Assembly: GCF_015999335.1 (NCBI RefSeq)
Contig: NZ_JAEACP010000010.1
Span: 62,001-126,000, forward strand
Source of the DNA: Tabrizicola soli
GTDB lineage: Bacteria > Pseudomonadota > Alphaproteobacteria > Rhodobacterales > Rhodobacteraceae
Direction of reading: 5' to 3'
Length of the DNA: 64,000 nucleotides
Shown here: positions 8,981-39,199 of the stretch, piece after piece
Numbering within the stretch: position 1 is the first letter of the stretch
How the letters are laid out: each line of letters starts with the position of its first letter
Translations under genes and position numbers: made by a program
The notes under the pieces: model-generated
Database searches by the model: none
Seen by the model: only the letters and a program-made list of their open reading frames with translations
What the model was told of the DNA's origin: nothing

Positions 8981-9000
8981 CGGGGGCTCCTGCAGGAAGG

Positions 9001-9024: not shown

Positions 9025-9031
9025 GGTTGGA

Positions 9032-10177: not shown

Positions 10178-10224
10178 ACAAATGCGCAGATTAGTTTGGG
10201 CTGCTGTGCCGCCGACCAACAGAA

Positions 10225-10251
10225 AGGGGACGAAGGTTTCCCCCGTCCCCT
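10225..10251 (-). terminator. Rho-independent-like terminator after the second ABC operon
   Basis: AGGGGACG (10225-10232) pairs with CGTCCCCT (10244-10251). Read on the minus strand, the hairpin is followed by TTTCTGTT. It lies 28 bases after the permease stop at 10280 and insulates the next minus-strand operon. Confidence 0.7.
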
Positions 10252-10279
10252 GCGGATGGCGCCGCGAGGTCTGGCGTGG

Positions 10280-11257
10280 TCAGGCCTGGCCGGGTTTCTT
10301 GCCGAAGGCCACGGCCACGATGATGATGGCCCCGGAGATCATCATCTGCTCGCTGACGTCGAGGCCCATGATGATCAGCCCGTTGTTGATCGTCCCGATC
10401 AGGAGCGAGCCCGCGAAGGTGCCCAGGATCGTGCCCTTGCCGCCGAAAAGGCTGGTCCCGCCCAGGATCACCGCGGCGATGGCCATCAGCTCGGCCCCCT
10501 CGCCGAAGTTGAAGCGGGCGGTCTGCATCATGCCGGTGTAGAGCATGCCGGCCAGCGCGGCGGCGGCGCCGGTCAGGAGGAACCCGTAGAACTTCACCCG
10601 CCGGGTCTTGACGCCCGAATATTCCGCCGCCTGCCGGTTGCCGCCGGTCGCCAGGATCTCGCGTCCGAAGCCGGTGTATTTCAGCACGACATGGCCGATC
10701 AGGGCGACGACGACGGACCAGATCAGCAAGGACGGGATGCCGAACAGCTTGCCCGAGCCAAACAGACTGTTGAACGTCTGGTTCGTGACCGAGACGGGGT
10801 TGGTATAGGTCACCCGCATGTCGACGCCGCGGATGAACTGCATCATGCCCAGCGTCACCAGGAAGGACGGGATGCCGATCACGGTGACGAAGAACCCGTT
10901 CAGGCAGCCGACCAGCAGGCCCGCGCCGATGGCGGCGGCGAAGGCCAGGGGCCAGGGATAACCGGCCTGGATCACCAGCGCGCAGACCAGCGCGGCAAGC
11001 GCGGTGGTCGAGCCGACGGAGAGGTCAAGCTCGCCGGCAGAGATGATGAAGGTCATCGCCACGGCGATCACCGTGATCATCGCGGTGGTGCGGGCGATGT
11101 TGAACAGGTTGGTGACCGACAGGAACCCCTTGTCGCCGATGGTGACGGCGAAGAAGCCCAGCACGATGACGAAGAAGATGTAGACGACGTAGTTCTGCCA
11201 CTGGATGCTAGGCAGCGACATCGTCGGACGGCCCGATATGGTGACCTTGGATTGCAT
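10280..11257 (-). CDS. Ribose-type ABC transporter permease, second system
   Basis: 325 residues with the RbsC-family signature SAGELDLSVGSTTALAALV near residues 95-113 and ILGGTSLFGGKGTILGTFAGSLL near the end. It has 8-9 hydrophobic segments. The ATG at 11257 has a strong AGAGGAGGAG site, so the gene overlaps the upstream ATPase gene by 50 bases; a later ATG at 11221 would give less overlap but has no such site. Its partners are the ATPase at 11208-12734 and the binding protein at 12794-13963. Confidence 0.9.
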   Translation of the reverse strand: MQSKVTISGRPTMSLPSIQWQNYVVYIFFVIVLGFFAVTIGDKGFLSVTNLFNIARTTAMITVIAVAMTFIISAGELDLSVGSTTALAALVCALVIQAGYPWPLAFAAAIGAGLLVGCLNGFFVTVIGIPSFLVTLGMMQFIRGVDMRVTYTNPVSVTNQTFNSLFGSGKLFGIPSLLIWSVVVALIGHVVLKYTGFGREILATGGNRQAAEYSGVKTRRVKFYGFLLTGAAAALAGMLYTGMMQTARFNFGEGAELMAIAAVILGGTSLFGGKGTILGTFAGSLLIGTINNGLIIMGLDVSEQMMISGAIIIVAVAFGKKPGQA

Positions 11258-12734
11258 GGTGGAGCTCCTCCTCTGAGGTCAGGTCGCGACGGTTCATGTC
11301 CTGGACGATGCGGCCGCCGTGCAAGACGAGGATGCGGTCGCTGATCGCCATGAGTTCTTCGAGTTCGGACGAGATCACGAGCACGGCCATGCCCTTGTCG
11401 GCCATGGCGCGGACGGTGGCGACGATCTCGGATTTGGCGCCGATGTCGACGCCGATGGTGGGTTCGTCCAGGATCAGGAGGCGCGGGTCGCGCGCCAGCC
11501 ACTTGCCCAGCACGATCTTCTGCTGGTTGCCGCCCGACAGCAGGCGCGCCAGCTTGTCCGGGCCGTCGGTCTTGATCCGCAGCTCGCGGATGGTGCGGGT
11601 GACGGTCTGCAGCGCCTCGGCGTCCTGCACCAGGAAGTTGCGGGTGAAGCGGGCGAGGTTGGGCAGGAGCACGTTGTCGCGCACCGAATGGTCCAGCACG
11701 AGGCCCATCTTGCGCCGGTCCTCGGGCACCAGCGCGATGCCGCGGTCGATGGCGTCCGCCTGGTTGCGGACGGGCCTGCCGTCGAAGATCACCTCGCCCG
11801 AGACCGGCGCGCGGCGGCCGAAGATCGTCTCGGCGATCTCGGTCCGGCCCGAGCCCATCAGGCCCGCGAGGCCCAGGATCTCGCCCGGGCGCAGGTCGAA
11901 GCTGACATCGTTGACGCGGGCGGGCAGGCGCAGGCTGCGCAGCGACAGGATCGGCGGGGCCTCGGGCCTTGGGCCGCGGTCGTGCCATTCGAAGCTGGCG
12001 GCGTTCCCCGCGCCCAGCATCGCCTCGACGATGCGGTCGACGGTCAGCCCGGCGCAGTCCTCGGTCATCACCGCCTCGCCGTCGCGCATCACGGTGACGC
12101 GGTCGCAGATCGCCAGGATCTCGGCCATCCGGTGCGAGATGTAGACGATGGAGATGCCGCTGGCCTTGAGCCGGGCGACCAGTTCGAACAGGGCCTCGGT
12201 CTCGGCCTCGGAAAGCGAGGAGGTCGGCTCGTCCATCACCAGGATGCGGGCGTTCTTCGACAGCGCCTTGGCGATCTCGACGATCTGCATGTAGCCGACC
12301 GGCAGCGCGCCCACCGGGGTTTCCGGGTCGATGTCGACGCCCAATTCATGCAGCAGCGCGCGCGACCGGCGCACCATCTCGGCATTGTCGATGAAGATTC
12401 CGGCGCGGCGCGGCTCGCGCTTCAGCCAGATGTTCTGCGCGACCGTGAGGGTGGGAACCAGCGAGAACTCCTGGAAGATCATCGCGATCCCGGCGCGCTC
12501 GGCGGCGGCGGTGCCGTGGATCTCGACCGGCTGGCCGTCGACCAGGATGGTCCCGTCATCCTTGCTGTAGACCCCGGTCAGGATCTTCATCAGCGTGGAC
12601 TTGCCCGCGCCGTTGCCGCCCATCAGGGCATGGACCTCGCCCTTGCGAAGCGTGAACGAGACCCGTTTCAGGACCGGAATGCTGGCGAAGCTTTTCCGGA
12701 TGTCAATCATCTGAAGAACGTCTGCGGCGGGCAT
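11208..12734 (-). CDS. Ribose-type ABC transporter ATP-binding protein, second system
   Basis: 508 residues with two ATPase domains of the MglA/RbsA type. Walker A GGNGAGKST lies near residue 37 and the first Walker B reads ILVMDEPTSSLSEAE. The second half has GLMGSGRTEIAE, LSGGNQQKIVLGKWL and LLILDEPTIGVDIGAK. It is only distantly similar to the ATPase at 7487-8980, so the two systems are probably not a recent duplication. It lies 59 bases after the binding-protein gene with a hairpin between them. Confidence 0.92.
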   Translation of the reverse strand: MPAADVLQMIDIRKSFASIPVLKRVSFTLRKGEVHALMGGNGAGKSTLMKILTGVYSKDDGTILVDGQPVEIHGTAAAERAGIAMIFQEFSLVPTLTVAQNIWLKREPRRAGIFIDNAEMVRRSRALLHELGVDIDPETPVGALPVGYMQIVEIAKALSKNARILVMDEPTSSLSEAETEALFELVARLKASGISIVYISHRMAEILAICDRVTVMRDGEAVMTEDCAGLTVDRIVEAMLGAGNAASFEWHDRGPRPEAPPILSLRSLRLPARVNDVSFDLRPGEILGLAGLMGSGRTEIAETIFGRRAPVSGEVIFDGRPVRNQADAIDRGIALVPEDRRKMGLVLDHSVRDNVLLPNLARFTRNFLVQDAEALQTVTRTIRELRIKTDGPDKLARLLSGGNQQKIVLGKWLARDPRLLILDEPTIGVDIGAKSEIVATVRAMADKGMAVLVISSELEELMAISDRILVLHGGRIVQDMNRRDLTSEEELHHAIQGHHIGPSDDVAA

Positions 12735-12759
12735 GGCGAACCTCGCGGGGAGAGGGGAG

Positions 12760-12785
12760 GGGGCGCGGCGGGCTGGCCGCGCCCC
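12760..12785. terminator. Hairpin between binding-protein and ATPase genes, second system
   Basis: GGGGCGCGGC (12760-12769) pairs with GCCGCGCCCC (12776-12785) over 6 bases, just after the stop of the binding-protein gene (12794, minus strand). It is in the same position as the hairpin at 9001-9024 in the first system and suits partial termination. Confidence 0.6.
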
Positions 12786-12793
12786 GGTGCCGT

Positions 12794-13963
12794 TTACTGC
12801 GACAGCGCGGTGGTCATTTCCGCGGGCAGGTCGATCCGGTAGATCGTCTTGTAGGCCTCGGGCAGGGTGTCGCGGGTCACCTTCAGCGGCGGCACGACGA
12901 CATAGGACGGGGTCTCCTCGCCGATCAGCGCCAGCGCGCCCACGGTCGCCTCGGCCACGCCCTGGTCATAGGGGCGCTGCGAGGAGATGCCGGCGATGAA
13001 GCCGTTCTGCGCCATGTTCAGCGCGACGATCTGGTCGAAGTTCTCGTTGACGATCTTGAAGTCGTCCGGCGTGCGGCCGGCGGTGATCGCGGCGGTCACG
13101 GCGCCCATGGCCGGGATCGACCACGAGGCATACATGCCGTTCAGCGTCGGATAGCGGGCAAGGACGCCCTGCGCCACTTCCTGGCCCTTGTTCGGGTCGT
13201 TGTGGCCGGCGGCGGCGACGACGTTGATCTCGGGATACCTGGCCATCACCCGGGCGATGAAGCCCTCGTAGCGCAGGTTGGTGACGTAGAAGTCGTTGGC
13301 GAAATACATCGCCGCCACGTCGCCCTTGCCGCCCAGCGATTCCGCCAGCGCGTCGGCGAGATACATCCCCAGCGCCAGGTTGTCCGAGGAGATGATCGCG
13401 GCATAGTCCTCGCCGGGCTCCATCCCCTCGACGGCCTGGTCGATGAACACCACCTTGGTCCCGGCTTCCTCGATCGCCTTGTAGGCCGAGGCGGTGGTCT
13501 GGCCGTTCAGCGGGATCGAGACCAGCAGGTCGGGCTTCAGCACCGAGATGGCTTCCAGGTCGGCGATCTGCTTGGCGTCGTCCCAGTTGGCGTTGGTTTC
13601 GGCGACGACCTCGATGCCCAGCTTCTCGAAGGTTTCCTTCAGGCCGATCAGCTGCTGGCTGGCCCAGTCGTCGCCCAGCCACCCCATCGAGATGGCGACG
13701 GTGAACTTGCCGGCCTTGACCTTGGCGATCTGCTCTTCGGTCAGCTTCAGCTCGGCGGCGGGGAAGCCCGGCTCGCCGCGCTGGCCGTCCGAGACGACGA
13801 CGCCGTCGATGCTGTCCATCGCGGCGATTTCCATCGTCTTGGCCGAGGGCTCCTTGTACCACAGCGGGTGCTGGATGTCGGCGGCGATCTCGGCCATGGC
13901 GAAGCCGGGCACGAGGGCCACGGACAGCGCCAGCGCGAAGGACTTGGAATTCAGGGTTTTCAT
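12794..13963 (-). CDS. Periplasmic sugar-type binding protein, second system
   Basis: 389 residues with a signal peptide (KTLNSKSFALALSVALVPGFAMA). The mature protein starts with an extra ~65 residues before the usual first strand (FTVAISMGWLGDDWASQQLIG), which is longer than ordinary ribose-binding proteins. The rest fits a type I two-lobe binding protein, with VFIDQAVEG and VNENFDQIVALNMAQNGFIAGISSQRPYDQG. It lies 81 bases after an alpha/beta hydrolase gene on the same strand, so the hydrolase may act on the same substrate or its precursor. Confidence 0.87.
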   Translation of the reverse strand: MKTLNSKSFALALSVALVPGFAMAEIAADIQHPLWYKEPSAKTMEIAAMDSIDGVVVSDGQRGEPGFPAAELKLTEEQIAKVKAGKFTVAISMGWLGDDWASQQLIGLKETFEKLGIEVVAETNANWDDAKQIADLEAISVLKPDLLVSIPLNGQTTASAYKAIEEAGTKVVFIDQAVEGMEPGEDYAAIISSDNLALGMYLADALAESLGGKGDVAAMYFANDFYVTNLRYEGFIARVMARYPEINVVAAAGHNDPNKGQEVAQGVLARYPTLNGMYASWSIPAMGAVTAAITAGRTPDDFKIVNENFDQIVALNMAQNGFIAGISSQRPYDQGVAEATVGALALIGEETPSYVVVPPLKVTRDTLPEAYKTIYRIDLPAEMTTALSQ

Positions 13964-15694: not shown

Positions 15695-16007
15695 GTGATG
15701 CTCCTTCGCAGTTGATGATGCTGTCCCGTGGAATGGTGTAGCCGGGCGCCCTGCTGTCCGGCGCGCCTGATTGACCAGAGGCATGGCGGCCGCTGATGGC
15801 GGGATCATCGCGCATCGGGGCGATGGTTTCCAGTAACATGTGGCGGGCGCGCGGACGGTCCGTTCGTCGGTCTCGGGTCGAAGTGCGTCGAGAGGGCAGC
15901 CTCGGGCCGTTCACATCCGTCCGGCAAGCCAAGATCAGCCTTGACATCCGGGGGCACCAGTGTGCGATATAGAATGTATGATATATCAAACTAACGGGGA
16001 CGGGGCG
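15695..16007. other. Intergenic region between divergent OsmC and PxpA genes
   Basis: 313 bases with no convincing gene. The left part must hold the OsmC promoter on the minus strand, but I see no clear boxes. The right end holds a TTGACA hexamer (15941-15946) and the TGATATATCA palindrome (15979-15988). The middle is GC-rich and featureless to my eye. Confidence 0.6.
15979..15988. promoter_or_regulatory. TGATATATCA palindrome, candidate GntR operator of the pxpA arm
   Basis: A perfect 10-base palindrome, 20 bases before the PxpA ATG, downstream of TTGACA at 15941-15946. The same palindrome followed by AA occurs at 23130-23139 in the divergent regulator/pxpB promoter region. Such AT-rich palindromes stand out in this GC-rich DNA and fit FadR/FCD-type GntR binding (inference). 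Confidence 0.65.
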
Positions 16008-16742
16008 ATGGTCACCATCAACTGCGACATGGGTGAGGCCTTTGGCATCTACCGCTTCGGCGATGACACGGCCTGCATGCCCTTTGTCACCCATGCGAAT
16101 GTCGCCTGCGGGTTCCATGCCTCGGATCCGAACGTGATGTGGAGCACGGTCCGCGCGGCGAAGGCGGCGGGGATCAGGGTCGGCTCGCACCCCGGCTTGC
16201 CGGATCGCGAGGGCTTTGGCCGGCGGCTGATGCGGATGACGCGGGCGGAAGTGGCCGCCCTGACCATCTACCAGACGGGCGCGCTGGCCGGTTTTCTGAG
16301 GGCCGAGGGGATGGAGCTGTCCCATATCAAGCCGCATGGCGCGCTGTTCGGCATGGCCCAGAACGACCCGGAGGTGGCCGAAGGAATCGCGGATGCGGCC
16401 GAGATCTTCGGCGTTCCGGTCATCGCCTTTTCGGATTGCTGCATGTCCGAGGTCTTTGCCCGGCGCGGGATTCCGTTCAGCTGCGAGTTCTATGTCGATC
16501 TGGATTACGGCGACGATGGCCGCCAGGTCATCTCGCGCGAGCATCCGCCGATCGCCGCCGAGGCGGTGGCGGAGAAGGTCCGACGCGCGGTCGAGGACGG
16601 CGTGACCCGCGCGATGAGCGGCAAGGATGTCCGCGTGGTGGCCGAGTCGATCTGCGTCCATTCCGACACGCCCAACGCCATCGTCGTCGCCCGCGCCGTG
16701 CATGAAGAACTGGGCCGGCGCGGCCTTCTGCCCTCGGGCTGA
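16008..16742 (+). CDS. pxpA: LamB/YcsF family protein (5-oxoprolinase subunit A, PxpA)
   Basis: 244 residues from the ATG at 16008, where the conserved INCDMGEAFG begins; an upstream ATG adds non-family residues. The signature blocks VACGFHASDP, GSHPGLPDREGFGRR and HIKPHGALF are all present. In PxpABC this subunit takes part in ATP-dependent opening of 5-oxoproline, a lactam. Here pxpB and pxpC lie 7 kb away in a second arm with biotin carboxylase genes, so the substrate may be another amide or lactam. The next gene starts 2 bases after the stop. Confidence 0.88.
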   Translation: MVTINCDMGEAFGIYRFGDDTACMPFVTHANVACGFHASDPNVMWSTVRAAKAAGIRVGSHPGLPDREGFGRRLMRMTRAEVAALTIYQTGALAGFLRAEGMELSHIKPHGALFGMAQNDPEVAEGIADAAEIFGVPVIAFSDCCMSEVFARRGIPFSCEFYVDLDYGDDGRQVISREHPPIAAEAVAEKVRRAVEDGVTRAMSGKDVRVVAESICVHSDTPNAIVVARAVHEELGRRGLLPSG

Positions 16743-16744
16743 CG

Positions 16745-18190
16745 ATGTTCCGCGCGATCGGGGGCCATGCATTGCAGGAGGATCTGGCTGGGGCGCTTGT
16801 CCCGGCCTTTCGCGCGATCGGCGCCTCGATCGGGCCGGACGGCCGGCATGTGATCTATTCGACCGGCAACCGGGTGGCGACCGCCGTCTCGGGCAGCGAG
16901 ATCGCGCGGCGGGTCTGCTCGGACCATTTCGCGGCGCGGCTGCTGAAGGAAACGCTGGTCGACGCCGAGCGCGACCTGGGCGACGGGACGGCGCGGCTGG
17001 CAGTGATGGCCGGCGCGGCGCTGGCGGCGGCGCGGCGGGGGATCGCGGCAGGCGCGGTGCCGGAACAGGTGATCGCGGCGCTGGTGGCGCTGCGGCCGGT
17101 GCTGGACGAGGCCTTTGCCGCCGAGCGTGCCGAGGCGGTCGATCTGGTCGCGGTCGCGCTGGCCGCCGGGGCAGAGGCAGAACTGGCGCAGCGGCTGGCC
17201 GAGGCCTGCGCCGCGGTGGGAACGGCGGGTCTGGTCGAGGTGGCGGAAGGCCACGAGCCGGGGCTGAGACTGGACATCCGGCAGGGCTTCGGTTTCGAGG
17301 CAAGGCCGGTGGGAAGCGCCGGGCTGGAGGCGATGGGGCCGGTCCATCTGATCGTCGCCAACGAGGTGATCCGGGATTTCCGTACGCTTGCCCCGGTGAT
17401 CGAAGGCTTTGCCCGCAGCGACAAGTCGCTGGTGATCGCCGCGCGCGGGCTGGAGGATCAGGCGCTGCATCTGATCGAGCGCAACCGGCAGGCCGGGGTG
17501 CTGAAGGTCGCGGCGCTGCTGCCGCGCGATGCGGGGCCGCGCGCGGCCGAGATCCTGGAGGACCTGGCCATCGCGACCGGCGCGGTGCTGGTCTCGGAGC
17601 ACGCGGGGGTCTCGCTTGACGCGCTGAAACCCGCGATGCTGGGCCGGGCGGAAACCTATCGGCGCGAGGGATCGCTGGTCGTCCTGACCGGGGTCGCCGG
17701 GGACCCGGCGCGGATCGCCCCCCGGCTGCGCGGGATCGAGGCCGAGATTGCCGCCAAACGCTATCTGCCGCTGGACCGGGAACATGCCCGGCAGCGCCAT
17801 GCCCGGCTGTCCGGGCACTGGGCGGAACTGCGGATCGGCGCGCGCGGCGGGGCGGGCGATGCCGTGGCGCAGGCCCGGCGGGCGCTGGCCTCGATCCGCT
17901 CGGCCCGCGATGGCGGCGTGATCGACGGCGGCGGGCGCGGGCTGGACCGGATCGCGGCCCGGCTGGAGGCCCGCCCCGCCGGGACGGGATCGGACGCCAC
18001 GGCGCAGGCGATGCTTCTGGCCGCCCTGCGCGCGCCGGGGATCTGCCTGCGGCGGAATTCCGGTGAGGCCGGACCCTTCAGGGCCGCCCCGGTCACCGAT
18101 CCGGCCGGGCTGTCCCGCAGCCTTCTGGATGTCGCGCTTTCGCTGGCCGGCCGTCTTGCCGGTCTTGAAGGCGCGGTCATCCGCCACTGA
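16745..18190 (+). CDS. Degenerate GroEL-like (Cpn60/TCP-1) protein, predicted non-ATPase
   Basis: 481 residues (GroEL has about 548). By hand alignment it follows GroEL from end to end: IGPDGRHV (29-36) for GPKGRNV, GDGTA (79-83) for GDGTT, VGTAGLVEVAEG (158-169) for VGKEGVITVEDG, VLKVAAL for IVKVAAV, GGVIDGGG (390-397) for EGVVAGGG, and NSGEAG for NCGEEP. The Asp87 equivalent (Asp80) remains. The two catalytic aspartates are lost: Asp52 is Ser49 and Asp398 is Arg379. Apical residues Tyr199, Tyr203 and Phe204 appear as Pro, Ala and Gly, and there is no GGM tail. No GroES gene is nearby. It lies between pxpA and the transporter genes, so a scaffold or dedicated folding role for the operon's enzymes is possible (inference). 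Confidence 0.82.
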   Translation: MFRAIGGHALQEDLAGALVPAFRAIGASIGPDGRHVIYSTGNRVATAVSGSEIARRVCSDHFAARLLKETLVDAERDLGDGTARLAVMAGAALAAARRGIAAGAVPEQVIAALVALRPVLDEAFAAERAEAVDLVAVALAAGAEAELAQRLAEACAAVGTAGLVEVAEGHEPGLRLDIRQGFGFEARPVGSAGLEAMGPVHLIVANEVIRDFRTLAPVIEGFARSDKSLVIAARGLEDQALHLIERNRQAGVLKVAALLPRDAGPRAAEILEDLAIATGAVLVSEHAGVSLDALKPAMLGRAETYRREGSLVVLTGVAGDPARIAPRLRGIEAEIAAKRYLPLDREHARQRHARLSGHWAELRIGARGGAGDAVAQARRALASIRSARDGGVIDGGGRGLDRIAARLEARPAGTGSDATAQAMLLAALRAPGICLRRNSGEAGPFRAAPVTDPAGLSRSLLDVALSLAGRLAGLEGAVIRH

Positions 18191-18218: not shown

Positions 18219-19301
18219 ATGACAGACAGCAGCAGGGAGCCGATGCTCGAGGTGGAGGACGTCGTGCACCGTTACGGCATGGTGACGGCCCTTTCGCATG
18301 TCTCGCTTTCGGCGGGACGCGGCGAGTTCCTGACCATCCTCGGCTCCAGCGGCTCGGGCAAGACGACGATGCTGCGGGTGATCTCGGGGCTGGAGATGCC
18401 GACCTCGGTCAAGGTGCTGCGCATCGGCGGGGCCGATGTGGCGAACCTTCCGGCGGCCAAGCGCAACTGCACGACCGTGTTCCAGAACTATGCGCTGTTT
18501 CCGCATATGAGCGTGGTGGAAAACGTGGCCTACGGGCTGCGCATCCGCAAGATGAACGCGGCGGACGCCCTGCGCGAGGCGCGGCGCGCGCTGGCAATGG
18601 TGCAGCTCGAGGCGAAGGCCGACCGCCGGATCAGCCAGCTTTCGGGCGGCGAGAAGCAGCGCGTGGCGCTGGCCCGCGCGGTCGTGACCCAGCCGGCGAT
18701 CCTGCTCCTGGACGAACCCCTTGGCGCGCTGGACGAAAAGCTGCGGCAGGACATGCAGATCGAGCTGATGGAGCTGCAACGCTCGCTGGGGATGACCTTC
18801 GTCTACATCACCCACAGCCAGGAAGAGGCGCTGACGATGAGCGACCGCGTGGTGCTGATGAGCCATGGCCGCATCGTGCAGAGCGGCGGGCCGCTGGATC
18901 TGTTCGACCGCCCGGAAAGCCGTTTCGCGGCCGAGTTCATGGGGTACGAGAACATCCTGCCCGCCCGCCTGATCGGCCGCGAGGGGACCGCGGGCATTGT
19001 GGAGTTCCCCGGCGGCGCGCGCACCAGGGGCGTGGTCACGGTGGAGGGGCTGAAGGCGGGCGACGCCGTCTGCGTGGCCCTGCGCGCCGAGCGGATCGCA
19101 CCGGCGACGGAAGGCGCGACCGATGCGCTGAAGGCCGAGGTCACGAACCGGGTCTACCGGGGCAAGTACATCGACATCGCGCTGGCGACCGATGCGGGGC
19201 CGCTGCGTCTGCGCAGCTGGCACGGCTCGCATGTCGAAAGCGAGGATATCCGGCGGATTGGCTGGAACACGAACGACGCGGTGATCTTCGCCGCCGAGTA
19301 G
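18219..19301 (+). CDS. Polyamine-type ABC transporter ATP-binding protein (PotA family)
   Basis: 360 residues from the ATG at 18219. Walker A GSSGSGKTT is near residues 44-52, followed by Q-loop [10 protein letters not shown], signature [14 protein letters not shown] and Walker B ILLLDEPLGALD. A C-terminal TOBE-type domain (residues ~280-355) is typical of PotA and other CUT1/polyamine ATPases. It starts 28 bases after the GroEL-like gene and powers the two permeases at 20599-22370. Substrate probably a cationic or amide-bearing small molecule handled by the cluster (inference). Confidence 0.9.
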   Translation: MTDSSREPMLEVEDVVHRYGMVTALSHVSLSAGRGEFLTILGSSGSGKTTMLRVISGLEMPTSVKVLRIGGADVANLPAAKRNCTTVFQNYALFPHMSVVENVAYGLRIRKMNAADALREARRALAMVQLEAKADRRISQLSGGEKQRVALARAVVTQPAILLLDEPLGALDEKLRQDMQIELMELQRSLGMTFVYITHSQEEALTMSDRVVLMSHGRIVQSGGPLDLFDRPESRFAAEFMGYENILPARLIGREGTAGIVEFPGGARTRGVVTVEGLKAGDAVCVALRAERIAPATEGATDALKAEVTNRVYRGKYIDIALATDAGPLRLRSWHGSHVESEDIRRIGWNTNDAVIFAAE

Positions 19302-19339: not shown

Positions 19340-20536
19340 ATGAAGGACAAATTCTCGACCTACAGCCAGGCGCAGCTGACCCGGCGCAGCCTGATGCAGG
19401 GAATGAGCGCCATCGCGGGCCTTGCCGCCTTTGGCGCGGCGGGACGGGCGGCGGCGCAGGACATGCCGCTGGTCAAGGCCTATGGCGTGCCGACGGCGGC
19501 GCTGAAGGACTGGGCGCCCATGGAGAAATCCATCGGCGTCCGCTGCGAGCTGAGCGGCGCCAGCAACGACGTCGGCGTCTTCATGCGCGACGTCATGGGC
19601 GCGAACATGGGCGACAGCGTCGACCTGTTCATCTTCGAATCCGGCACCGAGGACATCCTGGGGCCGCAGGGCCTCTATGCCCCGCTGGACGAGAAGCACC
19701 CCGAGCTGACCCTGTGGGAGCGGACCTCGGACGACTGGAAACGCTCGGCCGTGGTGCAGGACACCGAGGGCAACCAGTGGGGCGTTCCGGTCATCGGCAA
19801 CGCCGACAGCTTCGGCTACTTCCCCGAGAAGCTGGGCCTTGCGCCCGACAGCGAGGAAGAGCTGTCCTGGTCGCTGATGTTCGAGGACGAGAACACCCGC
19901 GGCCGCGTGGCCTATGGCAATGCCTATACCTATTCGATGGGCCCGGCGGCGCTGTATCTGCAGGCCAAGGGCGCGGCGCAGATCGGCAATGTCGCCGACA
20001 TGACCCCCGAAGAGGCAAAGGTCGTCGCCGACTTCCTGATCGAGCGCAAGAAGGCGGGCCAGTTCCGCACCCTCTACGGCGCCTTCGAGGAGCAGATCCA
20101 GCTGCTGACCAACAAGGAAGTGGACGTGATCAACTGCTGGGAACCGGCCGTGCGCGAGGCGAACCTCGTGCTGGGCCCGGACGCGACCCGCTATGCCTAT
20201 ACCAAGGAAGGCTATTTCAAGTGGGGCCACGGCGCCTATATCGCCGCGCAGGCGGTCGATCGCGGCAATCTGGACGCGATCTACAAGGTGCTGAACTACT
20301 TCCTCAGCGGCGAATACCGCGCGCTTCAGGCCCGCGACCGCGGCTATGCCGGCCCGAACATGGACCTGGGCGTGGAATATGCCGAAGCGAACGGCTGGAC
20401 CGCCGAGGAGGTCGCCGCGCTGAAGGCGACCGAGGCCAAGGTCAACAAGAAGTTCGCCAAGCCCTATGTCTCGACCACCACGCCGAACAACGCGAGCGCG
20501 ATGGAAGAGGAATGGCAGCGTTTCCTCAACGCCTGA
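19340..20536 (+). CDS. Polyamine-type periplasmic binding protein with Tat-like signal (PotD family)
   Basis: 398 residues. The N-terminus has a twin-arginine motif (LTRRSLMQG) before a hydrophobic stretch and an AxA-type site (GRAAAQD), so export is probably by Tat in folded form. The mature part has PotD-like features: DLFIFESGTEDILGPQGLY, a GVPVIGNADSFGYFPEKLG segment and NCWEPAVREANLVLGPDATRYAYTK in separate blocks. AACAGGAGAG precedes the ATG. A strong hairpin follows the stop. It determines the specificity of the transporter in this arm; ligand unknown. Confidence 0.85.
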   Translation: MKDKFSTYSQAQLTRRSLMQGMSAIAGLAAFGAAGRAAAQDMPLVKAYGVPTAALKDWAPMEKSIGVRCELSGASNDVGVFMRDVMGANMGDSVDLFIFESGTEDILGPQGLYAPLDEKHPELTLWERTSDDWKRSAVVQDTEGNQWGVPVIGNADSFGYFPEKLGLAPDSEEELSWSLMFEDENTRGRVAYGNAYTYSMGPAALYLQAKGAAQIGNVADMTPEEAKVVADFLIERKKAGQFRTLYGAFEEQIQLLTNKEVDVINCWEPAVREANLVLGPDATRYAYTKEGYFKWGHGAYIAAQAVDRGNLDAIYKVLNYFLSGEYRALQARDRGYAGPNMDLGVEYAEANGWTAEEVAALKATEAKVNKKFAKPYVSTTTPNNASAMEEEWQRFLNA

Positions 20537-20598: not shown

Positions 20599-21522
20599 AT
20601 GCAGCAAAGCACTGGCACCGCCGGCCGGGCGGGAGTCCTTTCGGGCGTCATCCGAAGGCTTGCGACGATGAAGGTCGCGGTCTGGCTGATCGTGCTGGCC
20701 TGGTTCGTCCTGGTGATCGTGCCGATCATCGTGCTCTTCGCCTTCAGCTTCTTCACGACCGAGCAGTTCCGCACCGTCTATACGCCCACGACGACGACCT
20801 GGGTGGAGCTGTTCTCCTCGGGCCGGTGGGAGGTGACGCTGCGCACCCTGCGCATCGCGATGACCGTGACGCTGATCGAACTTGCCGTGGGCTTTCCCTT
20901 CGCGCTGTGGCTGGCCAAGGGCCGGGTCGGCAAGGTCGGGCGCGCGGTCTGCCTGGCGATGCTGACGATCCCGTTCTTCCTTGACGTCTCGTCGCGGACC
21001 ATCGTCTGGCGGGCGATCCTGGGGCAGTCGGGGCTGGTCAACACCGTGCTGATGGGGCTTGGCCTGACCGACGCGCCGCTGGACTGGCTGCTCTATTCCG
21101 AAGTCGCGGTGCTGTTCGGGATGGTGGTGACGCTGTTCCCGCCCATGGTGATGCCGATCTACCTGGCGATCAGCCTGATCGACGACACGCTGCTCGAGGC
21201 CAGCAACGACCTTGGCGCCTCGCCCTGGCAGACGCTGTCCCGTGTCATCATCCCGCTGTCGCTGCCCGGCGTGATGGCCGGCATCGTCTTCAGCCTGGGG
21301 CCGGCGCTGGCCGCCTGGGTCGAGCCGGGGATGCTGGGCGGCGGCTTCGTCAACCTGATCTCGAACTCCATCGAAAGCGCCTATTCGGCCCTGCGCTATC
21401 CGGTCGTCGCGGCGCTGTCGGCTTTCGTGATCCTGCTTCTGCTTCTCATGCTGGGGGCCATGTACCTGATCGCGCGCCGGTTCGGCGATCCGGCCTCCTC
21501 GTTCCGCGTCCTGAGGGGGTGA
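20599..21522 (+). CDS. Polyamine-type ABC permease (PotB family)
   Basis: 307 residues with six predicted membrane segments; the first (VAVWLIVLAWFVLVIVPIIV) lies near residues 26-45. The cytoplasmic EAA loop reads EASNDLGASPWQTLSRVIIPLSLPG in part near residues 200-225, as in PotB-like permeases. It pairs with the permease directly downstream, whose start overlaps or abuts its stop, and with the ATPase at 18219-19301. Ordinary length and composition. Confidence 0.88.
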   Translation: MQQSTGTAGRAGVLSGVIRRLATMKVAVWLIVLAWFVLVIVPIIVLFAFSFFTTEQFRTVYTPTTTTWVELFSSGRWEVTLRTLRIAMTVTLIELAVGFPFALWLAKGRVGKVGRAVCLAMLTIPFFLDVSSRTIVWRAILGQSGLVNTVLMGLGLTDAPLDWLLYSEVAVLFGMVVTLFPPMVMPIYLAISLIDDTLLEASNDLGASPWQTLSRVIIPLSLPGVMAGIVFSLGPALAAWVEPGMLGGGFVNLISNSIESAYSALRYPVVAALSAFVILLLLLMLGAMYLIARRFGDPASSFRVLRG

Positions 21523-21524
21523 CC

Positions 21525-22370
21525 ATGGAAAACCGCATCGCCTTCGCCAGGGTCGCCCCGATCTCGCCGAAGCTCGAGATCAGCCATGCGCCGGTCTGGA
21601 AGCGGCTGGGCAAGTGGGGCGGCTTCGCGATGCTGGGGCTGATCTATTTCCCGCTCCTGTGGCTGATCCTTCTGTCGATCAGCCGCAATCCGCTGGGCGG
21701 GATTCCCGGCGACTTCTCGCTGGAGCATTATCGCGCGCTGTTCGCCAATTCCGAATGGCACATGCCGATGCTGGCCAGCCTGGTGATCGGCGTGATCGTG
21801 GGGCTGATCTGCGCGGTGGCCGCGACGATCATCGGCCGGGCGCTGCCCGCGCTGAACAGCCCCGGCAAGGTGCTGTTCCTGTTCGTGATTCCGTTGTTCG
21901 TGCCGGGCATGTCGATGGGGGCGGCGCTGTTGATCTTCACCCGGGCGGTGCTGGGGCTGAAGCTGGGGTTCTGGTCGGTGGCGCTGGGACATTTCGTCTG
22001 GGCCTTCCCCTTCGCGCTGCTGATCATCCTGGTCGTGACCACCCGCTTCGACCACCGCCTGGTCGAGGCCGGCCGCGATCTTGGCGCCAGCAACTGGCGG
22101 GTGTTCTGGGACATAGAGTTCCCGATCCTGATGCCGGGCATCGTCAGTTCGGCGCTGTTCGGGTTCCTGATGTCCTTCAACGAGGTGATGCGCTCGATCT
22201 TCCTGCGTGGCACGACCGAGACCATGCCGGTCTGGAGCTGGGTCCAGGCGGCGGCCCAGCAAAGCCAGGTGCCGATCATCTTCTCGCTGGCGTCGATCGT
22301 GCTGCTGATCACCCTGCCGCTTCTCTGCGCGGCCTTCTGGCTGTTGTTCGTCAAGCTCGACAAATCGTGA
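21525..22370 (+). CDS. Polyamine-type ABC permease (PotC family)
   Basis: 281 residues with six membrane segments (FAMLGLIYFPLLWLILLSI is the first) and an EAA loop EAGRDLGASNWRVFWDIEFP near residues 186-205. I take the ATG at 21525 because GAGGGGG lies 5-6 bases before it; a GTG at 21519 overlapping the preceding stop would add two residues. Last gene of the pxpA arm. The convergent GntR gene ends 17 bases further on. Confidence 0.87.
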   Translation: MENRIAFARVAPISPKLEISHAPVWKRLGKWGGFAMLGLIYFPLLWLILLSISRNPLGGIPGDFSLEHYRALFANSEWHMPMLASLVIGVIVGLICAVAATIIGRALPALNSPGKVLFLFVIPLFVPGMSMGAALLIFTRAVLGLKLGFWSVALGHFVWAFPFALLIILVVTTRFDHRLVEAGRDLGASNWRVFWDIEFPILMPGIVSSALFGFLMSFNEVMRSIFLRGTTETMPVWSWVQAAAQQSQVPIIFSLASIVLLITLPLLCAAFWLLFVKLDKS

Positions 22371-22387: not shown

Positions 22388-23047
22388 TCAGGGTGCTGCC
22401 GAGGCCAGGCGCGGCATCAGCGACCTGGCCGCGAGGGTCAGGTCGCGCTCCATGCAGGCGCGCGCGGCCGCCGCGTCGCCGCGCTCCAGCGCAGCGACGA
22501 TATGGACATGCTCGTCGTTGGCGTGCTGGCGGAAATGGTCGCTGTCGAAAAGCCCGGTGAAGACCGGCCCGACCTTCAGCCACAGGCCCTGGATCACGTG
22601 CAGAAGTTCCTCGTTCCCGGACTTCTCGTAGATGCGGAAGTGGAATTCCCGGTTCAGCTGCAGATAGGCCCGCGCGTCGAAGGTCTTGGCCGTGGCGGCG
22701 ATCCGGTCGAGGATCCCGCGCAGCTGGGCGATGTCATCGGGCACAAGGCGCGGCACGGCCAGTTCGGTCGCCATCCCCTCCAGCGCCACGCGCACCGGCA
22801 GAAGCTGTGCGAATTTCTCGCGCGTCATCTGCGGCACCACGATCGAGCGGTTCGGCAGCACGACCAGCAGGCGTTCGGCCACCAGCCGTTGCAGCGCCTC
22901 GCGGATCGGCGTCGCCGAGATGCCGTAGTTTTCCGCAAGTGTACGGATCACCAGCGGCTGCATCGGTGCGAAGATGCCGTTGGTCAGGCCCGTCAGGATC
23001 TCCTGGTAGGCGCGGTCGTTCAGCGGCTGATATTCGATCTTGGTCAT
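22388..23047 (-). CDS. GntR-family transcriptional regulator with FCD domain
   Basis: 219 residues. An N-terminal winged helix (LVIRTLAENYGISATPIREALQ in two parts, residues ~32-55) is followed by an all-helical FCD ligand-binding domain with REFHFRIYEKSGN and a VHIVAALERGD segment, which hold the usual metal-binding His residues. The ATG at 23047 is preferred over 23053 because AGGAAG lies 6 bases before it. It sits between the two arms and is divergent from pxpB across a region with TGATATATCA. Probably a repressor of both arms, released by the pathway substrate (inference). Confidence 0.9.
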   Translation of the reverse strand: MTKIEYQPLNDRAYQEILTGLTNGIFAPMQPLVIRTLAENYGISATPIREALQRLVAERLLVVLPNRSIVVPQMTREKFAQLLPVRVALEGMATELAVPRLVPDDIAQLRGILDRIAATAKTFDARAYLQLNREFHFRIYEKSGNEELLHVIQGLWLKVGPVFTGLFDSDHFRQHANDEHVHIVAALERGDAAAARACMERDLTLAARSLMPRLASAAP

Positions 23048-23129
23048 GCCCATCTTCCTGCATTCACGACGCTTTTAAGACCATGCGCCAGATTTTGCAC
23101 TTCTTATCACGTTGACGCTGTATTGTATA

Positions 23130-23175: not shown

Positions 23176-24039
23176 ATGCTGCACGATGAGCTGAGGTTCT
23201 ATCCCGGCGGGGACCGTGCCATCGAGGTCGAGCTGGGCGACGGCATGGACTTCACGCTGAACTTCACGGTTCACCGGCTGGTCGCGGCCGTGCGCGAAGC
23301 CCGGATCGCCGCGATCGAGGATCTGATCCCGGAGCTGGCCTCGTTCCAGGTGAACTATGACCCGGATCGGATCTCGTATGAGGATCTGACGGCCGAGATC
23401 GCGCGGATCTACGCCCGCATCGGCGCCGGCGCCTCGGGGTCGCTGCCCAGCCGGCTGATCACCATGCCGGTCTGGTACTCCGACGACCAGACCGCCGCCT
23501 GCATCGAGGACTACCGCAAGACCTATCCCGACAAGCGCACCGACCCGGACCTGGTCTGCGAGATGAACGGCCTTGCGGACCGTGCGGCGCTGGCGCGGCT
23601 GCATTCGGGGACGGAATACTGGGTGGCGGCGCTGGGGTTCTGGCCGGGGCTCTGCTCGCTGTTGCCGCTGCGGCCCAGGGCGCGGATCTTCGCGCCGAAA
23701 TACAACCCGCCGCGCACCTGGACGCCGAAGGGCGCCATCGGGATCGGCGGGGCGCTGACCTGCATCTACCCGGACCGCACGCCCGGCGGATACCAGCTGA
23801 TCGGCCGCAGCCCGGCGCCGATCTATGACGGAGCACAGCGCCTGCCCGCCTTCCGCGACAGTCTGGCCCTGTTCCGTGCCGGGGACCGCGTCCGGTTCCG
23901 CCCGGTCACGCAAGAGGAATGTGCGCAGATCGAGGCCGAGGTCGCCGCCGGCCGCTACGAACATGACATCGTCGAATATCAGGTCTTCTCGGTCGACCGC
24001 TATCTCGACTGGGCCAAGGGACAGGGGGGCCGGGGATGA
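23176..24039 (+). CDS. pxpB: KipI-family carboxyltransferase-like protein (5-oxoprolinase subunit B, PxpB)
   Basis: 287 residues, longer than most KipI/PxpB proteins (about 220-240). A GGGGGGAGGG ribosome site precedes the ATG. Family features are FYPGGDRAIEVELG near the start, FQVNYDPDRI, a GFWPGLCSLLPL segment and GIGGALTCIYPDRTPGG with its continuation near residues 195-220. In urea carboxylase the same fold (AHS1) is one half of the carboxyltransferase domain. Here it overlaps pxpC by 4 bases and shares an operon with a biotin carrier and biotin carboxylase, which suggests carboxyl transfer to an amide nitrogen (inference). Confidence 0.87.
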   Translation: MLHDELRFYPGGDRAIEVELGDGMDFTLNFTVHRLVAAVREARIAAIEDLIPELASFQVNYDPDRISYEDLTAEIARIYARIGAGASGSLPSRLITMPVWYSDDQTAACIEDYRKTYPDKRTDPDLVCEMNGLADRAALARLHSGTEYWVAALGFWPGLCSLLPLRPRARIFAPKYNPPRTWTPKGAIGIGGALTCIYPDRTPGGYQLIGRSPAPIYDGAQRLPAFRDSLALFRAGDRVRFRPVTQEECAQIEAEVAAGRYEHDIVEYQVFSVDRYLDWAKGQGGRG

Positions 24040-26093: not shown

Positions 26094-27422
26094 ATGGTAA
26101 CCGACACCGGCATGGTCAACGCCTTTGTGGAAGGCGCGGCCGAACTGGACGCGGCGACGGCGGCGATGATCGCGGACCGCAAGAAGCTGTTGGGGCCGGC
26201 CTATCGGCTGTTCTACCAGCGGCCCGTGCATTTCGTGCGGGGCGAGGGCGCCTGGCTTTACGACCCCGAGGGGAACGCCTATCTGGACGCCTACAACAAC
26301 GTCACCTCGATCGGCCATTGCCATCCGAAGGTGGTCGAGGCCGTCAGCCGCCAGATGGCGACGCTGACCACCAACACGCGCTACCTGCACGACTCGGTCC
26401 TGCGCTATGCCGACCGGCTGCTGGCGACGATGCCGGAGGGGATCGGGCATTTCATGTTCACCTGCACCGGCTCGGACGCGAACGACCTCGCGGTGCGGAT
26501 CGCCCAGTCCTATACCGGCGGGCAGGGTATCATCGTGACCGAGACCGCCTATCACGGCATCACGCAGACGGTGGCGGCCTTCTCGCCCTCGCTGGGCGAG
26601 AACGTGCCGCTGGGGGCGCATGTGCGGACGGTGCCGGCGCCGGATTCCTATCGCAGCGCGACCGGCGATGTCGGGGCCGAGTTCGCGGCCGGCGTCCAGG
26701 CGGCGATCCGCGACCTGCAGCGCCACGGGATCAAGCCCGCGCTCTTCATCTGCGACGGCATCTTCTCCAGCGACGGGGTGTTCGACGGCCCGGCCGGGTT
26801 CCTGAAAGGCGCGGTCGAGGCGATCCGCGTGGCGGGCGGCATCTATATCGCGGACGAGGTGCAGTCGGGATTTGGCCGTACCGGCGATGCGATGTGGGGC
26901 TTCCAGCGCCACGGCGTGGTGCCGGACCTGGTGACCATGGGCAAGCCGATGGGCAACGGCTATCCGGTGGCCGGTGTCGCCGGGCGGCCCGAGGTCCTGG
27001 CGGAGTTCGGCCGGAAGGCGCGGTATTTCAACACCTTCGGCGGCAATGCCGTGGCGGCCGAGGCGGCCATGGCGGTGCTTGAGGCGATCCAGTCCGAGGG
27101 GCTGGTCGAGAACGCCCGCGAGACCGGCCGCTATCTGAAGGACGGGATCCAGGCGCTGGCCTCGCTGCATCCCTGCATCGGCGACGTGCGCGGCGCGGGG
27201 CTGTTCCTGGGGGTGGAGATCGTCTCGGACCGCGTCGCGAAGACGCCCGACGCGGCCATGACCACCCGCATCGTCAACGGCCTGCGCGACGAGCGGGTGC
27301 TGATCTCGGCCTGCGCCAAGGCGGCGAACGTGCTGAAGATCCGGCCGCCGCTGATCTTCACCCGCGACCAGGCCGACATTCTGGTCGAACGGCTTGACCG
27401 CGTGCTGTCGCGCTGCGCCTGA
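26094..27422 (+). CDS. Class III PLP enzyme of the AGXT2L phospho-lyase group
   Basis: 442 residues. PLP-binding Lys284 sits in VTMGKPMGNGYPVA, with the cofactor Asp in IADEVQSGFGRTG. The segments LDAYNNVTSIGHCHP, TRYLHDSVLRYA, FNTFGGNAVA and NVLKIRPPLIF match the ethanolamine-phosphate and 5-phosphohydroxylysine phospho-lyases (AGXT2L1/2) better than ordinary omega-transaminases. These eliminate phosphate and ammonia from a phosphorylated amino alcohol to give an aldehyde. It starts 5 bases after the kinase stop, which strongly suggests a kinase/phospho-lyase pair. A plain transaminase role cannot be excluded. Confidence 0.85.
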   Translation: MVTDTGMVNAFVEGAAELDAATAAMIADRKKLLGPAYRLFYQRPVHFVRGEGAWLYDPEGNAYLDAYNNVTSIGHCHPKVVEAVSRQMATLTTNTRYLHDSVLRYADRLLATMPEGIGHFMFTCTGSDANDLAVRIAQSYTGGQGIIVTETAYHGITQTVAAFSPSLGENVPLGAHVRTVPAPDSYRSATGDVGAEFAAGVQAAIRDLQRHGIKPALFICDGIFSSDGVFDGPAGFLKGAVEAIRVAGGIYIADEVQSGFGRTGDAMWGFQRHGVVPDLVTMGKPMGNGYPVAGVAGRPEVLAEFGRKARYFNTFGGNAVAAEAAMAVLEAIQSEGLVENARETGRYLKDGIQALASLHPCIGDVRGAGLFLGVEIVSDRVAKTPDAAMTTRIVNGLRDERVLISACAKAANVLKIRPPLIFTRDQADILVERLDRVLSRCA

Positions 27423-27458: not shown

Positions 27459-27701
27459 ATGGCCACCAAACGCATCGAGTCGCCGCTGCCCGGCGTGATC
27501 TACCTCTCGCCCGCCCCGGGGGAGCCCGTGTTCAAGGCCCCGGGCGACAGCGTCGCGGTGGGCGACACCCTGGCGTTGGTCGAGGTGATGAAGTCCTACA
27601 TGCCGGTCGAGGCCGACCAGGCGGGCATCTTCAGGGGCTATCTTGTCGAAACCGAAACGGTGCTGGAGCCCGGCGAGCCGCTTTGCGAGCTTGAGGTCTG
27701 A
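27459..27701 (+). CDS. Small biotin carboxyl carrier protein
   Basis: 80 residues, just a biotinyl domain. The biotinylation motif is EVMKSYM with Lys45; the usual EAMKM has Ser in place of the Met after Lys. Gly-rich beta turns (PGDSVAVGDTLALVEV) fit the flattened-barrel fold. It lacks the N-terminal Ala/Pro part of the AccB used in fatty-acid synthesis. It sits 37 bases after the PLP-enzyme gene and its stop is followed 2 bases later by the biotin carboxylase, so the pair makes the carboxybiotin for PxpB/PxpC (inference). Confidence 0.85.
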   Translation: MATKRIESPLPGVIYLSPAPGEPVFKAPGDSVAVGDTLALVEVMKSYMPVEADQAGIFRGYLVETETVLEPGEPLCELEV

Positions 27702-27703: not shown

Positions 27704-29089
27704 ATGGCCCCGATCCGGAAGCTGCTGATCGCCAACCGGGGCGAGATCGCCGTGCGCATCCAGCGCGCGGCGCGCGACCTCGGGATCCGCACCGTGCAGG
27801 TGGTCAGCGAGGCCGACCGCGACATGCTGGCGGCCCGCATGGCCGACGAGGTCATCGTGCTTGGCCCGCCCGCCGCGTCGAAGTCCTATCTCGCGGTCGA
27901 CCGCCTGCTGGATGCCCTGCGCGACAGCGGGGCGGACGCGGTGCATCCCGGCTATGGCTTCCTGTCCGAGAACGCGGATTTCGCCCGCGCCGTCACCGCG
28001 ATGGGCCGGATCTTCGTCGGCCCCGACGCGGACACGATCGAGCGCATGGGCGACAAGGTGAATGCCCGGCAGGCCGCGATCGCGGCGGGCGTGCCCGTCG
28101 TGCCCGGCAGCGAAGGGCGGATCAAGGGTCTGGAGCAGGCCCTCTCCCTGGCGGGGGAGATCGGCTATCCGGTCATGGTGAAAGCCGCCGCCGGCGGGGG
28201 CGGGCGCGGCATCCGCGTCTCGCACACGGCCGAGGAACTGGCCGCCGCCATTCCCACCGCCATGGCCGAGGCGAAGGCGGGTTTCGGCGATCCCGGCCTG
28301 TATCTGGAGGCCTATATCGAGAAGGCCCGCCACATCGAGGTGCAGGTCCTGGGCGACGGCGAGGACGTGATCCACCTGCACGAGCGCGAATGTTCCCTGC
28401 AACGCCGCCGCCAGAAGGTCTGGGAGGAAGCCCCGGCCGCGATGCTGGACCCCGGCCTGCGGGCGGAGCTCTGCGCCTCGGCCGTGCGGCTGTCCAGGGC
28501 GGTCCGCTATCGCGGCGCGGGCACGATGGAATACCTTTACGACCCCGGCCGGCAGGCGTTCTACTTCATCGAGATGAACACCCGCATCCAGGTCGAGCAT
28601 CCCGTGACCGAGATGATCACCGGGATCGATCTGGTGCGCGAGATGCTGCTGATCGCCGGGGGCGGCAGGCTGCGGATGTCGCAAGAGGATGTCCGGTGCA
28701 CCGGACATGCCATCGAGGTCAGGATCAACGCCGAGGACCCGGCCCGCAACTTCATGCCGAATCCGGGCCATGTCGAGACCTTGCGCCTTCCCGAAGGCCC
28801 CGGAATCCGCTTCGACGAGGGCATCTATGCCGGTTACCGGGTTCCGCCTTTCTACGACTCGCTTTTGGGCAAGCTGATCGTGGCGGGCGCGTCGCGGGAG
28901 GAGGCGCTGGACCGGATGGCCGCGGCGCTGGACGGGCTGGAGATCGGCCCGATCGCGACGACAACCGCCCTGCACCGCGCCCTGGTGCAGGACCCTGCCC
29001 TGCGCGCCGGCGAGGTTTCGACCCGATGGCTGGAGACCTGGCTGGAAGGACCGGGAGTTGCGGCCATCAAGACCGCGAGCGGAACCTGA
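27704..29089 (+). CDS. Biotin carboxylase subunit (AccC family, split urea-carboxylase-like system)
   Basis: 461 residues, standard for AccC. The N-domain begins KLLIANRGEIAVRI and contains VHPGYGFLSEN. The ATP-grasp glycine loop is AAAGGGGRGIR near residues 162-172, and FIEMNTRIQVEHPVTE holds the catalytic Glu/Arg residues. It carboxylates biotin on the 80-residue carrier at the cost of ATP. The operon has no acetyl-CoA or propionyl-CoA carboxyltransferase; the only carboxyltransferase-type folds are PxpB and PxpC, as in urea carboxylase. Last gene of the arm. Confidence 0.9.
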   Translation: MAPIRKLLIANRGEIAVRIQRAARDLGIRTVQVVSEADRDMLAARMADEVIVLGPPAASKSYLAVDRLLDALRDSGADAVHPGYGFLSENADFARAVTAMGRIFVGPDADTIERMGDKVNARQAAIAAGVPVVPGSEGRIKGLEQALSLAGEIGYPVMVKAAAGGGGRGIRVSHTAEELAAAIPTAMAEAKAGFGDPGLYLEAYIEKARHIEVQVLGDGEDVIHLHERECSLQRRRQKVWEEAPAAMLDPGLRAELCASAVRLSRAVRYRGAGTMEYLYDPGRQAFYFIEMNTRIQVEHPVTEMITGIDLVREMLLIAGGGRLRMSQEDVRCTGHAIEVRINAEDPARNFMPNPGHVETLRLPEGPGIRFDEGIYAGYRVPPFYDSLLGKLIVAGASREEALDRMAAALDGLEIGPIATTTALHRALVQDPALRAGEVSTRWLETWLEGPGVAAIKTASGT

Positions 29090-39197: not shown

Positions 39198-39199
39198 GC

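Follow-up and report, generated by a model that had tools for sequence, protein, structure and literature searches.

Among the closest described systems are GroEL paralogues tied to one catabolic operon. MmoG, a GroEL-like protein encoded in soluble methane monooxygenase (sMMO) operons, is suggested in extracts of PMC9324122 to have a folding role, and MimG is a further GroEL-like protein, listed with 'maturation of MimAC' in an extract of PMC7176365. The additional Chlamydia paralogues GroEL2 and GroEL3 are said to differ in their GroES-binding and ATP regions (PMC1892554, excerpts), and the review PMC5904260 covers type I paralogues that have taken on other roles; excerpts of it describe the extra chlamydial GroELs as separately located. 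Unlike these, the chaperonin described here, named CpnL, is borne in an operon; it is encoded in a 64,000-nucleotide stretch of Tabrizicola soli DNA (contig NZ_JAEACP010000010.1), the whole of which is called the window. With MmoG, MimG and PrmG, as far as the excerpted sources describe these, CpnL has in common that it is a GroEL paralogue bound to one catabolic operon. It is thus an operon-dedicated chaperonin like those already known; what is new is that it is degenerate and importer-linked. It is proposed, with a probability of about 0.42, that CpnL descends from a captured GroEL paralogue and would now serve a partner from its operon as a holdase or assembly platform that neither hydrolyses ATP nor needs GroES. 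The likeliest partner would be a component of the adjacent ATP-binding cassette (ABC) importer, and first its substrate-binding protein (SBP).

An earlier, sequence-only reading of the same DNA had recognised a 481-residue GroEL homologue and had named a Cpn60 profile search, a structure prediction with GroEL superposition and a neighbourhood survey as checks. It had also stated that it knew of no chaperonin described in such a context. The exact context was indeed not found in literature on YcsF or 5-oxoprolinase with chaperonin, but operon-linked MmoG and MimG were already known.

16745..18190, + strand: cpnL (name given here), 481 residues from an ATG start, type I chaperonin fold without catalytic D52 and D398

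The identification of this product as a GroEL homologue was borne out by Pfam, by sequence search of the PDB and by structure prediction. CpnL matched the Cpn60 family PF00118 significantly (E 1.6e-14, 53.9 bits against a curated cutoff of 34.3), the best single stretch being residues 24–114. NCBIfam GroEL models covered residues 24–446 with up to 149.8 bits, all under their own cutoffs; the GroEL equivalog TIGR02348 scored 141.3 bits against a cutoff of 582.1, and the GroEL3_Chlamy model 40.9 bits against 600. A phmmer search of the PDB returned 104 sequences at E ≤0.01, the best at 7.5e-36 over residues 24–444, and the best 60 of the 104 were chaperonins throughout. CpnL is about 26% identical to the GroEL of its own genome; with CpnL alone as the query, a scan of genome contigs gave one Myxococcales GroEL, at 26% identity.

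An AlphaFold model of the monomer, built from an alignment of the window protein with 48 diverse GroELs, had a mean predicted local distance difference test (pLDDT) score of 85.1 and a predicted template modelling (pTM) score of 0.69. Along its whole length the model has the equatorial–intermediate–apical fold. The top Foldseek match was GroEL 1mnf (E 1.3e-32, TMq 0.81, 521 columns), and the 50 matches listed were chaperonins without exception. The β-strands at residues 2–6, 36–40, 43–47 and 476–480 of the model resemble those that join neighbouring subunits in the GroEL ring.

Residues of CpnL were compared with GroEL in an alignment that contained two GroELs from its own genome and the 48 diverse GroELs (clustering threshold 78% identity), of which 47 came from viral contigs and the remaining one from a Myxococcales metagenome-assembled genome. 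The positions concerned are the following.

16889..16894, + strand: Ser49-Gly50, at the site of the GroEL catalytic D52-G53
16982..16996, + strand: D80-G-T-A-R84, Mg-binding D87 retained and T91 replaced by Arg
17477..17485, + strand: E245-R246-N247, GroEL V263-V264-N265 of apical helix I, where charges replace the hydrophobic groove
17759..17779, + strand: R339-Y-L-P-L-D-R345, insertion motif [KR]YLx[YLF]DR common to transporter-linked chaperonins
17879..17881, + strand: Arg379, at the site of the GroEL catalytic D398, Arg in five of five CpnL proteins
18068..18085, + strand: residues 442-447, a low-confidence loop at the place of the GroEL adenine-pocket hairpin

In GroEL, altering D52 and D398 reportedly comes close to abolishing ATP hydrolysis. 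Both aspartates, which a functional GroEL ATPase is expected to carry, are replaced in CpnL (D52 by S49 and D398 by R379), while D87 is kept as D80; all 48 GroELs have Asp at all three positions. In the apical domain, Y199, Y203 and F204 correspond to P188, A192 and G193, and the C-terminus reads ...VIRH in place of a GGM tail. The sequence-only reading had called each of these changes correctly, and the alignment adds T91 to R84, V263 to E245 and V264 to R246. The hairpin at GroEL residues ~468–492, with adenine contacts at ~478–481, is lost in all five CpnL copies. What remains GroEL-like, besides homology over residues 24–444 and the predicted fold, is D87, G32-P33 and the outer glycines of the GGG motif (414 and 416). 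From these residues, CpnL is most likely ATPase-dead. The earlier suggestion that it may bind but not hydrolyse ATP therefore stands for the probable loss of hydrolysis, whereas binding is doubtful because the adenine-pocket hairpin is also gone.

Five CpnL proteins were compared. Translated searches (tblastn) of plasmids gave one match with at least 80% query coverage, in Shinella sp. PSBB067, where the alignment falls into two pieces with 59.9% identity. At E ≤1e-37, CpnL was found in 4 of 394 genomes of a family sample with nearly one genome per genus, namely its own genome and three others, here G404, G193 and G164. It occurred in 1 of 390 genomes of the order sample, in 1 of 385 of the class sample (by profile at 1e-85, a threshold that would not reveal catalytically complete relatives) and in 1 of 32 of its own genus; in the genera of G193, G404 and G164 the counts were 1/2, 1/1 and 1/1. 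In the large genome searches, no more than four candidates per genome were scored. CpnL is rare and of scattered occurrence, which might suit a mobile operon. As Shinella belongs to the Rhizobiaceae, while the window DNA partly resembles Paracoccus plasmids, the operon is likely to occur in two families.

Arg at the D398 site is present in five of five CpnL proteins and in none of the 48 diverse GroELs; N247, like R379, is invariant among the five, and so is D87. At the other sites the G164 protein stands apart. It retains Asp at D52 and has Ser for T91 and Ala/Leu for V263/V264, whereas the other four have Ser or Thr for D52, Arg for T91 and Glu/Arg for V263/V264. The apical helices H–I are 73% identical among the four same-order CpnL proteins, compared with 54% for the whole protein; in the 48 canonical GroELs the corresponding values are 50% and 52%.

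CpnL evolves faster than its neighbour genes and yet under constraint. Its nonsynonymous divergence (dN) is 0.343 between the window and Shinella and 0.303 between G404 and G193, about 2–5 times the 0.065–0.155 of PxpA, SBP, ATPase and PxpC. The Nei–Gojobori ratios of dN to synonymous divergence (dS) for the same pairs are 0.41 and 0.26, against 0.07–0.22 for those neighbours; with dS at 0.55–1.37, these ratios are rough. Fast change and the many lost GroEL residues would suit a decaying paralogue without function. This is the least probable of the explanations considered here, since none of the five open reading frames (ORFs) has an in-frame stop, dN/dS stays at 0.26–0.41, the apical helices and the two invariant residues are conserved, and synteny holds in four genomes.

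The genes that follow cpnL in the window encode an ABC importer.

18219..19301, + strand: ABC importer ATPase, PotA-like, likely ATG at 18219 (searches used 18225 onward)
19340..20536, + strand: ABC importer SBP, twin-arginine-like signal TRRSLMQG
20599..21522, + strand: ABC importer permease 1, from Pfam
21519..22370, + strand: ABC importer permease 2, PotC-like, from a profile match

The window SBP had neither a Pfam nor a PDB sequence match, and it served as a query for the importer itself. At E 1e-100 in 384 family genomes, it was found in exactly the four genomes that have CpnL, and at 1e-60 the sole plasmid record was that of Shinella, also the sole record with a full-length CpnL. At 1e-60 in 230 genomes of the class, five carried it: its own genome and four of other families, G893, G790, G751 and G865, the first two of which are distant alphaproteobacteria. 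In G790, a chaperonin gene lies directly upstream of ATPase-SBP-permease 1-permease 2, and in G893, contig C9 ends within a chaperonin gene at the same place by the importer. The chaperonin gene is directly upstream of the cassette in the window, Shinella, G404, G193 and G790, with one transaminase gene between them in G164. Altogether, seven of seven chaperonin loci have the importer adjacent or close by, and PxpA is present in five of the seven. PxpA, PxpB and PxpC gave no tblastn match in the stretches read from G790 (19 kb), G893 (11.7 kb, to the contig end), G751 and G865.

The G790 chaperonin (P0005) has 554 residues when read from a TTG and keeps D52, D87, T91, D398, the hairpin, Y199, F204, V263 and V264. 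At the Y203 position it has His, a residue also found there in 5 of the 48 GroELs; it has no GGM tail, and it narrowly passes the GroEL equivalog cutoff (584 against 582.1). A piece on contig C158 of G893 is 58% identical to P0005, with D52, D87, T91 and D398 present; the contig-end piece on C9 of that genome shows the hairpin and does not cover the motif region. Separate housekeeping GroELs are encoded in both genomes, one in G790 and two in G893. The insertion motif [KR]YLx[YLF]DR is found in all five CpnL proteins, in P0005 and in the G893 C158 piece, and in none of the 48 diverse GroELs, 19 GroELs of relatives, 8 other housekeeping GroELs and 2 PrmG-type proteins. Correspondingly, a 36-row IQ-TREE tree with a mixture model placed the five CpnL proteins and the two transporter-linked chaperonins on one side of a branch with support of 99/98. 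In a 76-row tree without the latter two, the five CpnL proteins formed one group (99/99), although the bootstrap had not settled. On sequence evidence, then, CpnL is a GroEL homologue that shares ancestry with the transporter-linked chaperonins and has lost catalytic and adenine-pocket elements, and its fold is a predicted one.

A second kind of GroEL-like gene occurs in two species of the own genus, at loci L032 (7279-8910) and L033 (7734-9365). Its products are called PrmG-type here because a PF02332 hydroxylase was confirmed near the former gene and the layout of L033 is similar. Both keep D52, D87, T91, D398 and the hairpin, unlike CpnL; they lie outside the CpnL clade, and CpnL does not group with PrmG in the trees. 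The L032 protein, the sole PrmG-type protein scanned, is likewise under the TIGR02348 cutoff (505.5). No di-iron monooxygenase hydroxylase family was found among the scanned operon proteins of the window.

The members can be set in a loss series: all catalytic residues are present in G790, D398 is Arg with D52 kept in G164, and in the four operon members D52 and T91 are lost and the apical site is charged. Under the proposal, a GroEL paralogue would have been captured beside one ABC importer (ATPase-SBP-permease-permease) at a catalytically complete stage such as that in G790. The loss of D398 would have preceded that of D52, T91 and the hydrophobic apical groove. The resulting CpnL would be unable to turn over ATP and would make no use of GroES, and it may assemble through its equatorial β-sheet elements. 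A fixed, charged apical surface could then hold or assemble a partner encoded in the same operon, with an importer component, the SBP foremost, as the likeliest candidate; help with folding would be passive, as from a holdase or assembly platform, rather than by an ATP-driven cage. A dedicated holdase or platform is best supported because the charged apical surface is conserved and the ring strands are kept. The SBP N-terminal motif, which we take to be of the twin-arginine type, implies that the protein would fold in the cytosol before export. In its proposed job alone, as the cytosolic partner of a protein exported by twin-arginine translocation (Tat), CpnL would resemble the redox enzyme maturation proteins of the DmsD type. 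The DmsD fold is unrelated to the chaperonin fold.

A broader claim, that the series constitutes an ATP- and GroES-independent scaffold lineage dedicated to one importer operon, with losses in the order G790, G164 and the four operon members, is more tentative still. If it were true, the lineage would parallel, in bacteria, the pseudo-chaperonins MKKS/BBS of eukaryotes. The ATP need of chaperonin action is usually studied with mutants. Here, one lineage and one operon type appear to offer a natural graded series, from catalytically complete proteins to those with both catalytic aspartates missing, which allows a test of whether chaperonins can persist as passive, single-client devices. An ABC importer might also gain a chaperonin-level partner, for which we know of no precedent; a chaperonin–ABC importer link is not named in the titles and abstract openings listed from the nearest literature.

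Several observations weigh against an importer-dedicated, nucleotide-independent CpnL. Because G790 and G893 came to light in the SBP search, their importer linkage is partly built in, and the search for related chaperonins away from the importer covered five genomes. G751 and G865, whose SBPs are 38–40% identical, carry the cassette, and no chaperonin was found there in 19.5 kb. We infer that the C158 and C9 pieces of G893 belong to one gene. The main doubt about the tree lies in its long branches (3.6–5.1 changes per column for G164), together with composition: the letter make-up was flagged for all five CpnL proteins and the G893 piece. A twin-arginine-type motif is present at the SBP N-terminus in seven of seven chaperonin-linked loci, but as a discriminator it was rejected, being carried by nine of nine SBPs including the two without chaperonin. 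In the available portions of two Tat-chaperone papers, GroEL serves only as a marker or aggregation control, which lends no support to a GroEL role for Tat-exported SBPs. The retention of D87, G32-P33 and the two glycines may allow weak nucleotide binding. The apical domain as a whole is more conserved than the equatorial by 11–18 points in four of six pairs of operon members and by ~0 in two. Among 1066 canonical pairs of similar divergence, the mean was minus 2.4 points with a spread of 8.4 and a maximum of 17.5, and unusual conservation of the whole apical domain was set aside as weak, an excess of up to 17.5 points lying within the canonical range. Finally, cpnL is closely coupled to pxpA in four operons. 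Linkage favours the importer as partner and tight gene coupling favours PxpA; the partner is unproven.

The remaining genes of the operon are the following.

15960..16742, + strand: PxpA / LamB-YcsF, stop 2 bases before the cpnL start, own start codon uncertain
22388..23053, − strand: GntR-family regulator, from a profile match
23176..24039, + strand: PxpB-like carboxyltransferase part, better score as a urea carboxylase segment
24036..25025, + strand: PxpC-like carboxyltransferase part, better score as a urea carboxylase segment
25018..26088, + strand: APH-family kinase-like protein, from profile matches
26124..27422, + strand: class III pyridoxal phosphate (PLP) enzyme, best solved matches phospho-lyases, start codon unsettled
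27459..27701, + strand: biotin carboxyl carrier protein (BCCP)-like, 80 residues, label from sequence and position, with syntenic copies
27704..29089, + strand: biotin carboxylase (BC), from Pfam

The neighbours of cpnL are thus pxpA and the importer ATPase gene, in place of the groES of GroEL. The window, Shinella, G404 and G193 have the same order, PxpA-CpnL-ATPase-SBP-permease 1-permease 2-(GntR)-PxpB-PxpC-APH-PLP enzyme-BCCP-BC. In G164, CpnL is followed by a different class III aminotransferase and then by ATPase, SBP, permease 1, permease 2, GntR, PxpA, PxpB and PxpC, with a second PxpA-BCCP-BC-PxpB-PxpC cluster downstream and no APH match in the stretch read. The neighbourhood survey thus found the gene recurring in related clusters, four in the same order and one rearranged. 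The earlier description of a degenerate Cpn60 homologue in a conserved operon is supported by profile, fold and these same-order operons.

The sequence-only reading had placed CpnL in the service of PxpABC and the biotin carboxylase enzymes. A role dedicated to folding or assembling the enzymes, with PxpA first, or the PxpBC/biotin carboxylase complex, seems unlikely, although it has more behind it than the other alternatives. The pxpA stop and the cpnL start are 2 bases apart in the window and 4 in Shinella, and overlap by 4 bases in G404 and G193, so that in all four operons the cpnL start is no further than 4 bases from the end of pxpA. The operon with all its enzymes is conserved in those four genomes, and PxpA is present, at 63% identity, in the diverged G164 cluster too. 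MmoG and MimG, moreover, are proposed or listed, in the excerpts cited above, as serving an enzyme of their own operon. Against this, the G790 and G893 stretches have the chaperonin and no match to PxpA, PxpB or PxpC, and CpnL does not adjoin PxpA in G164. Plasmid PxpA searches at E 1e-60 gave six records, one of them Shinella; of the other five, the three examined carry PxpA-BCCP-BC-PxpB-PxpC clusters (PxpA 51.5–54.9% identical), and their annotation, which is incomplete, shows no chaperonin within 12 kb. The importer, by comparison, accompanies all seven loci. No evidence was found for a storage shell, which had been suggested as well, and this reading was dropped.

CpnL might instead be a non-hydrolysing subunit that enters mixed rings with housekeeping GroEL and tunes it. 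The equatorial strands of the model would permit this, ordinary GroEL is also encoded in each of the four CpnL genomes searched, and chloroplast chaperonins form hetero-oligomers (PMC5904260, excerpt). The idea is improbable in view of the 20–32% identity of CpnL to its own GroEL in every segment, an intra-ring stem-loop that at 49% identity among four CpnL proteins is under their overall 54%, and alterations at some inter-ring positions. In the own genome, the GroEL on contig C9 has an ORF upstream that is GroES-like by sequence, and a second ordinary GroEL lies on a 3.8-kb contig (C44:311-1627).

A regulatory role, for example one acting on the GntR regulator, is more improbable again. MmoG is reportedly suggested to act with its activator, and a GntR gene is present at all five CpnL loci, but GntR genes adjoin many catabolic operons and tblastn with the window GntR gave no match to the stretches from G790 and G893.

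The chemistry of the operon was also reassessed. The sequence-only label of amide or lactam metabolism holds for PxpA, which is clear by profiles, but PxpB and PxpC are nearer to urea carboxylase and the PLP enzyme is phospho-lyase-like. The PxpB and PxpC equivalogs scored 85.3 against a cutoff of 145.55 and 149.9 against 500, while as urea carboxylase the two proteins reached 178.3 and 290.6 bits, both far under the urea carboxylase cutoff. The substrate may therefore not be 5-oxoproline. The PLP gene had been labelled aminotransferase-like; its best matches are instead 5g4i (376.9 bits) and the ethanolamine-phosphate phospho-lyase 6tor (361.5), the next scoring 191. The fusion model PRK06148 is matched in its first part by the APH-like gene and in its last part by the PLP enzyme, and the pair suggests phosphorylation of an amino alcohol followed by elimination of phosphate and ammonia. 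At the transporter-linked loci L205 (3666-6900) and L204 (1-2318 and 5672-7117), hydantoinase/oxoprolinase-type genes and a tetratricopeptide repeat (TPR) protein lie near the importer, and a cyclic-amide theme may persist there without PxpABC. An AAA ATPase gene also lies near the importer of G893, on its strand (L204, 3818-5122).

A promoter and terminator scan gave nothing exceeding shuffles, and Rfam and tRNA scans of the window gave no matches. Elsewhere in the window, hydantoinase/oxoprolinase, thiamine-pyrophosphate enzyme and aldehyde dehydrogenase genes occupy ~37765-51860, a region that aligns in parts (47–55% of a 24-kb query, 79–81% identity) with three Paracoccus plasmid records, and the window may be part of an extrachromosomal replicon. 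On the − strand at 7487-13963, two sugar-type ABC importers stand in tandem, with two double-size ATPase ORFs, two binding proteins and one permease ORF, as labelled from their translations.

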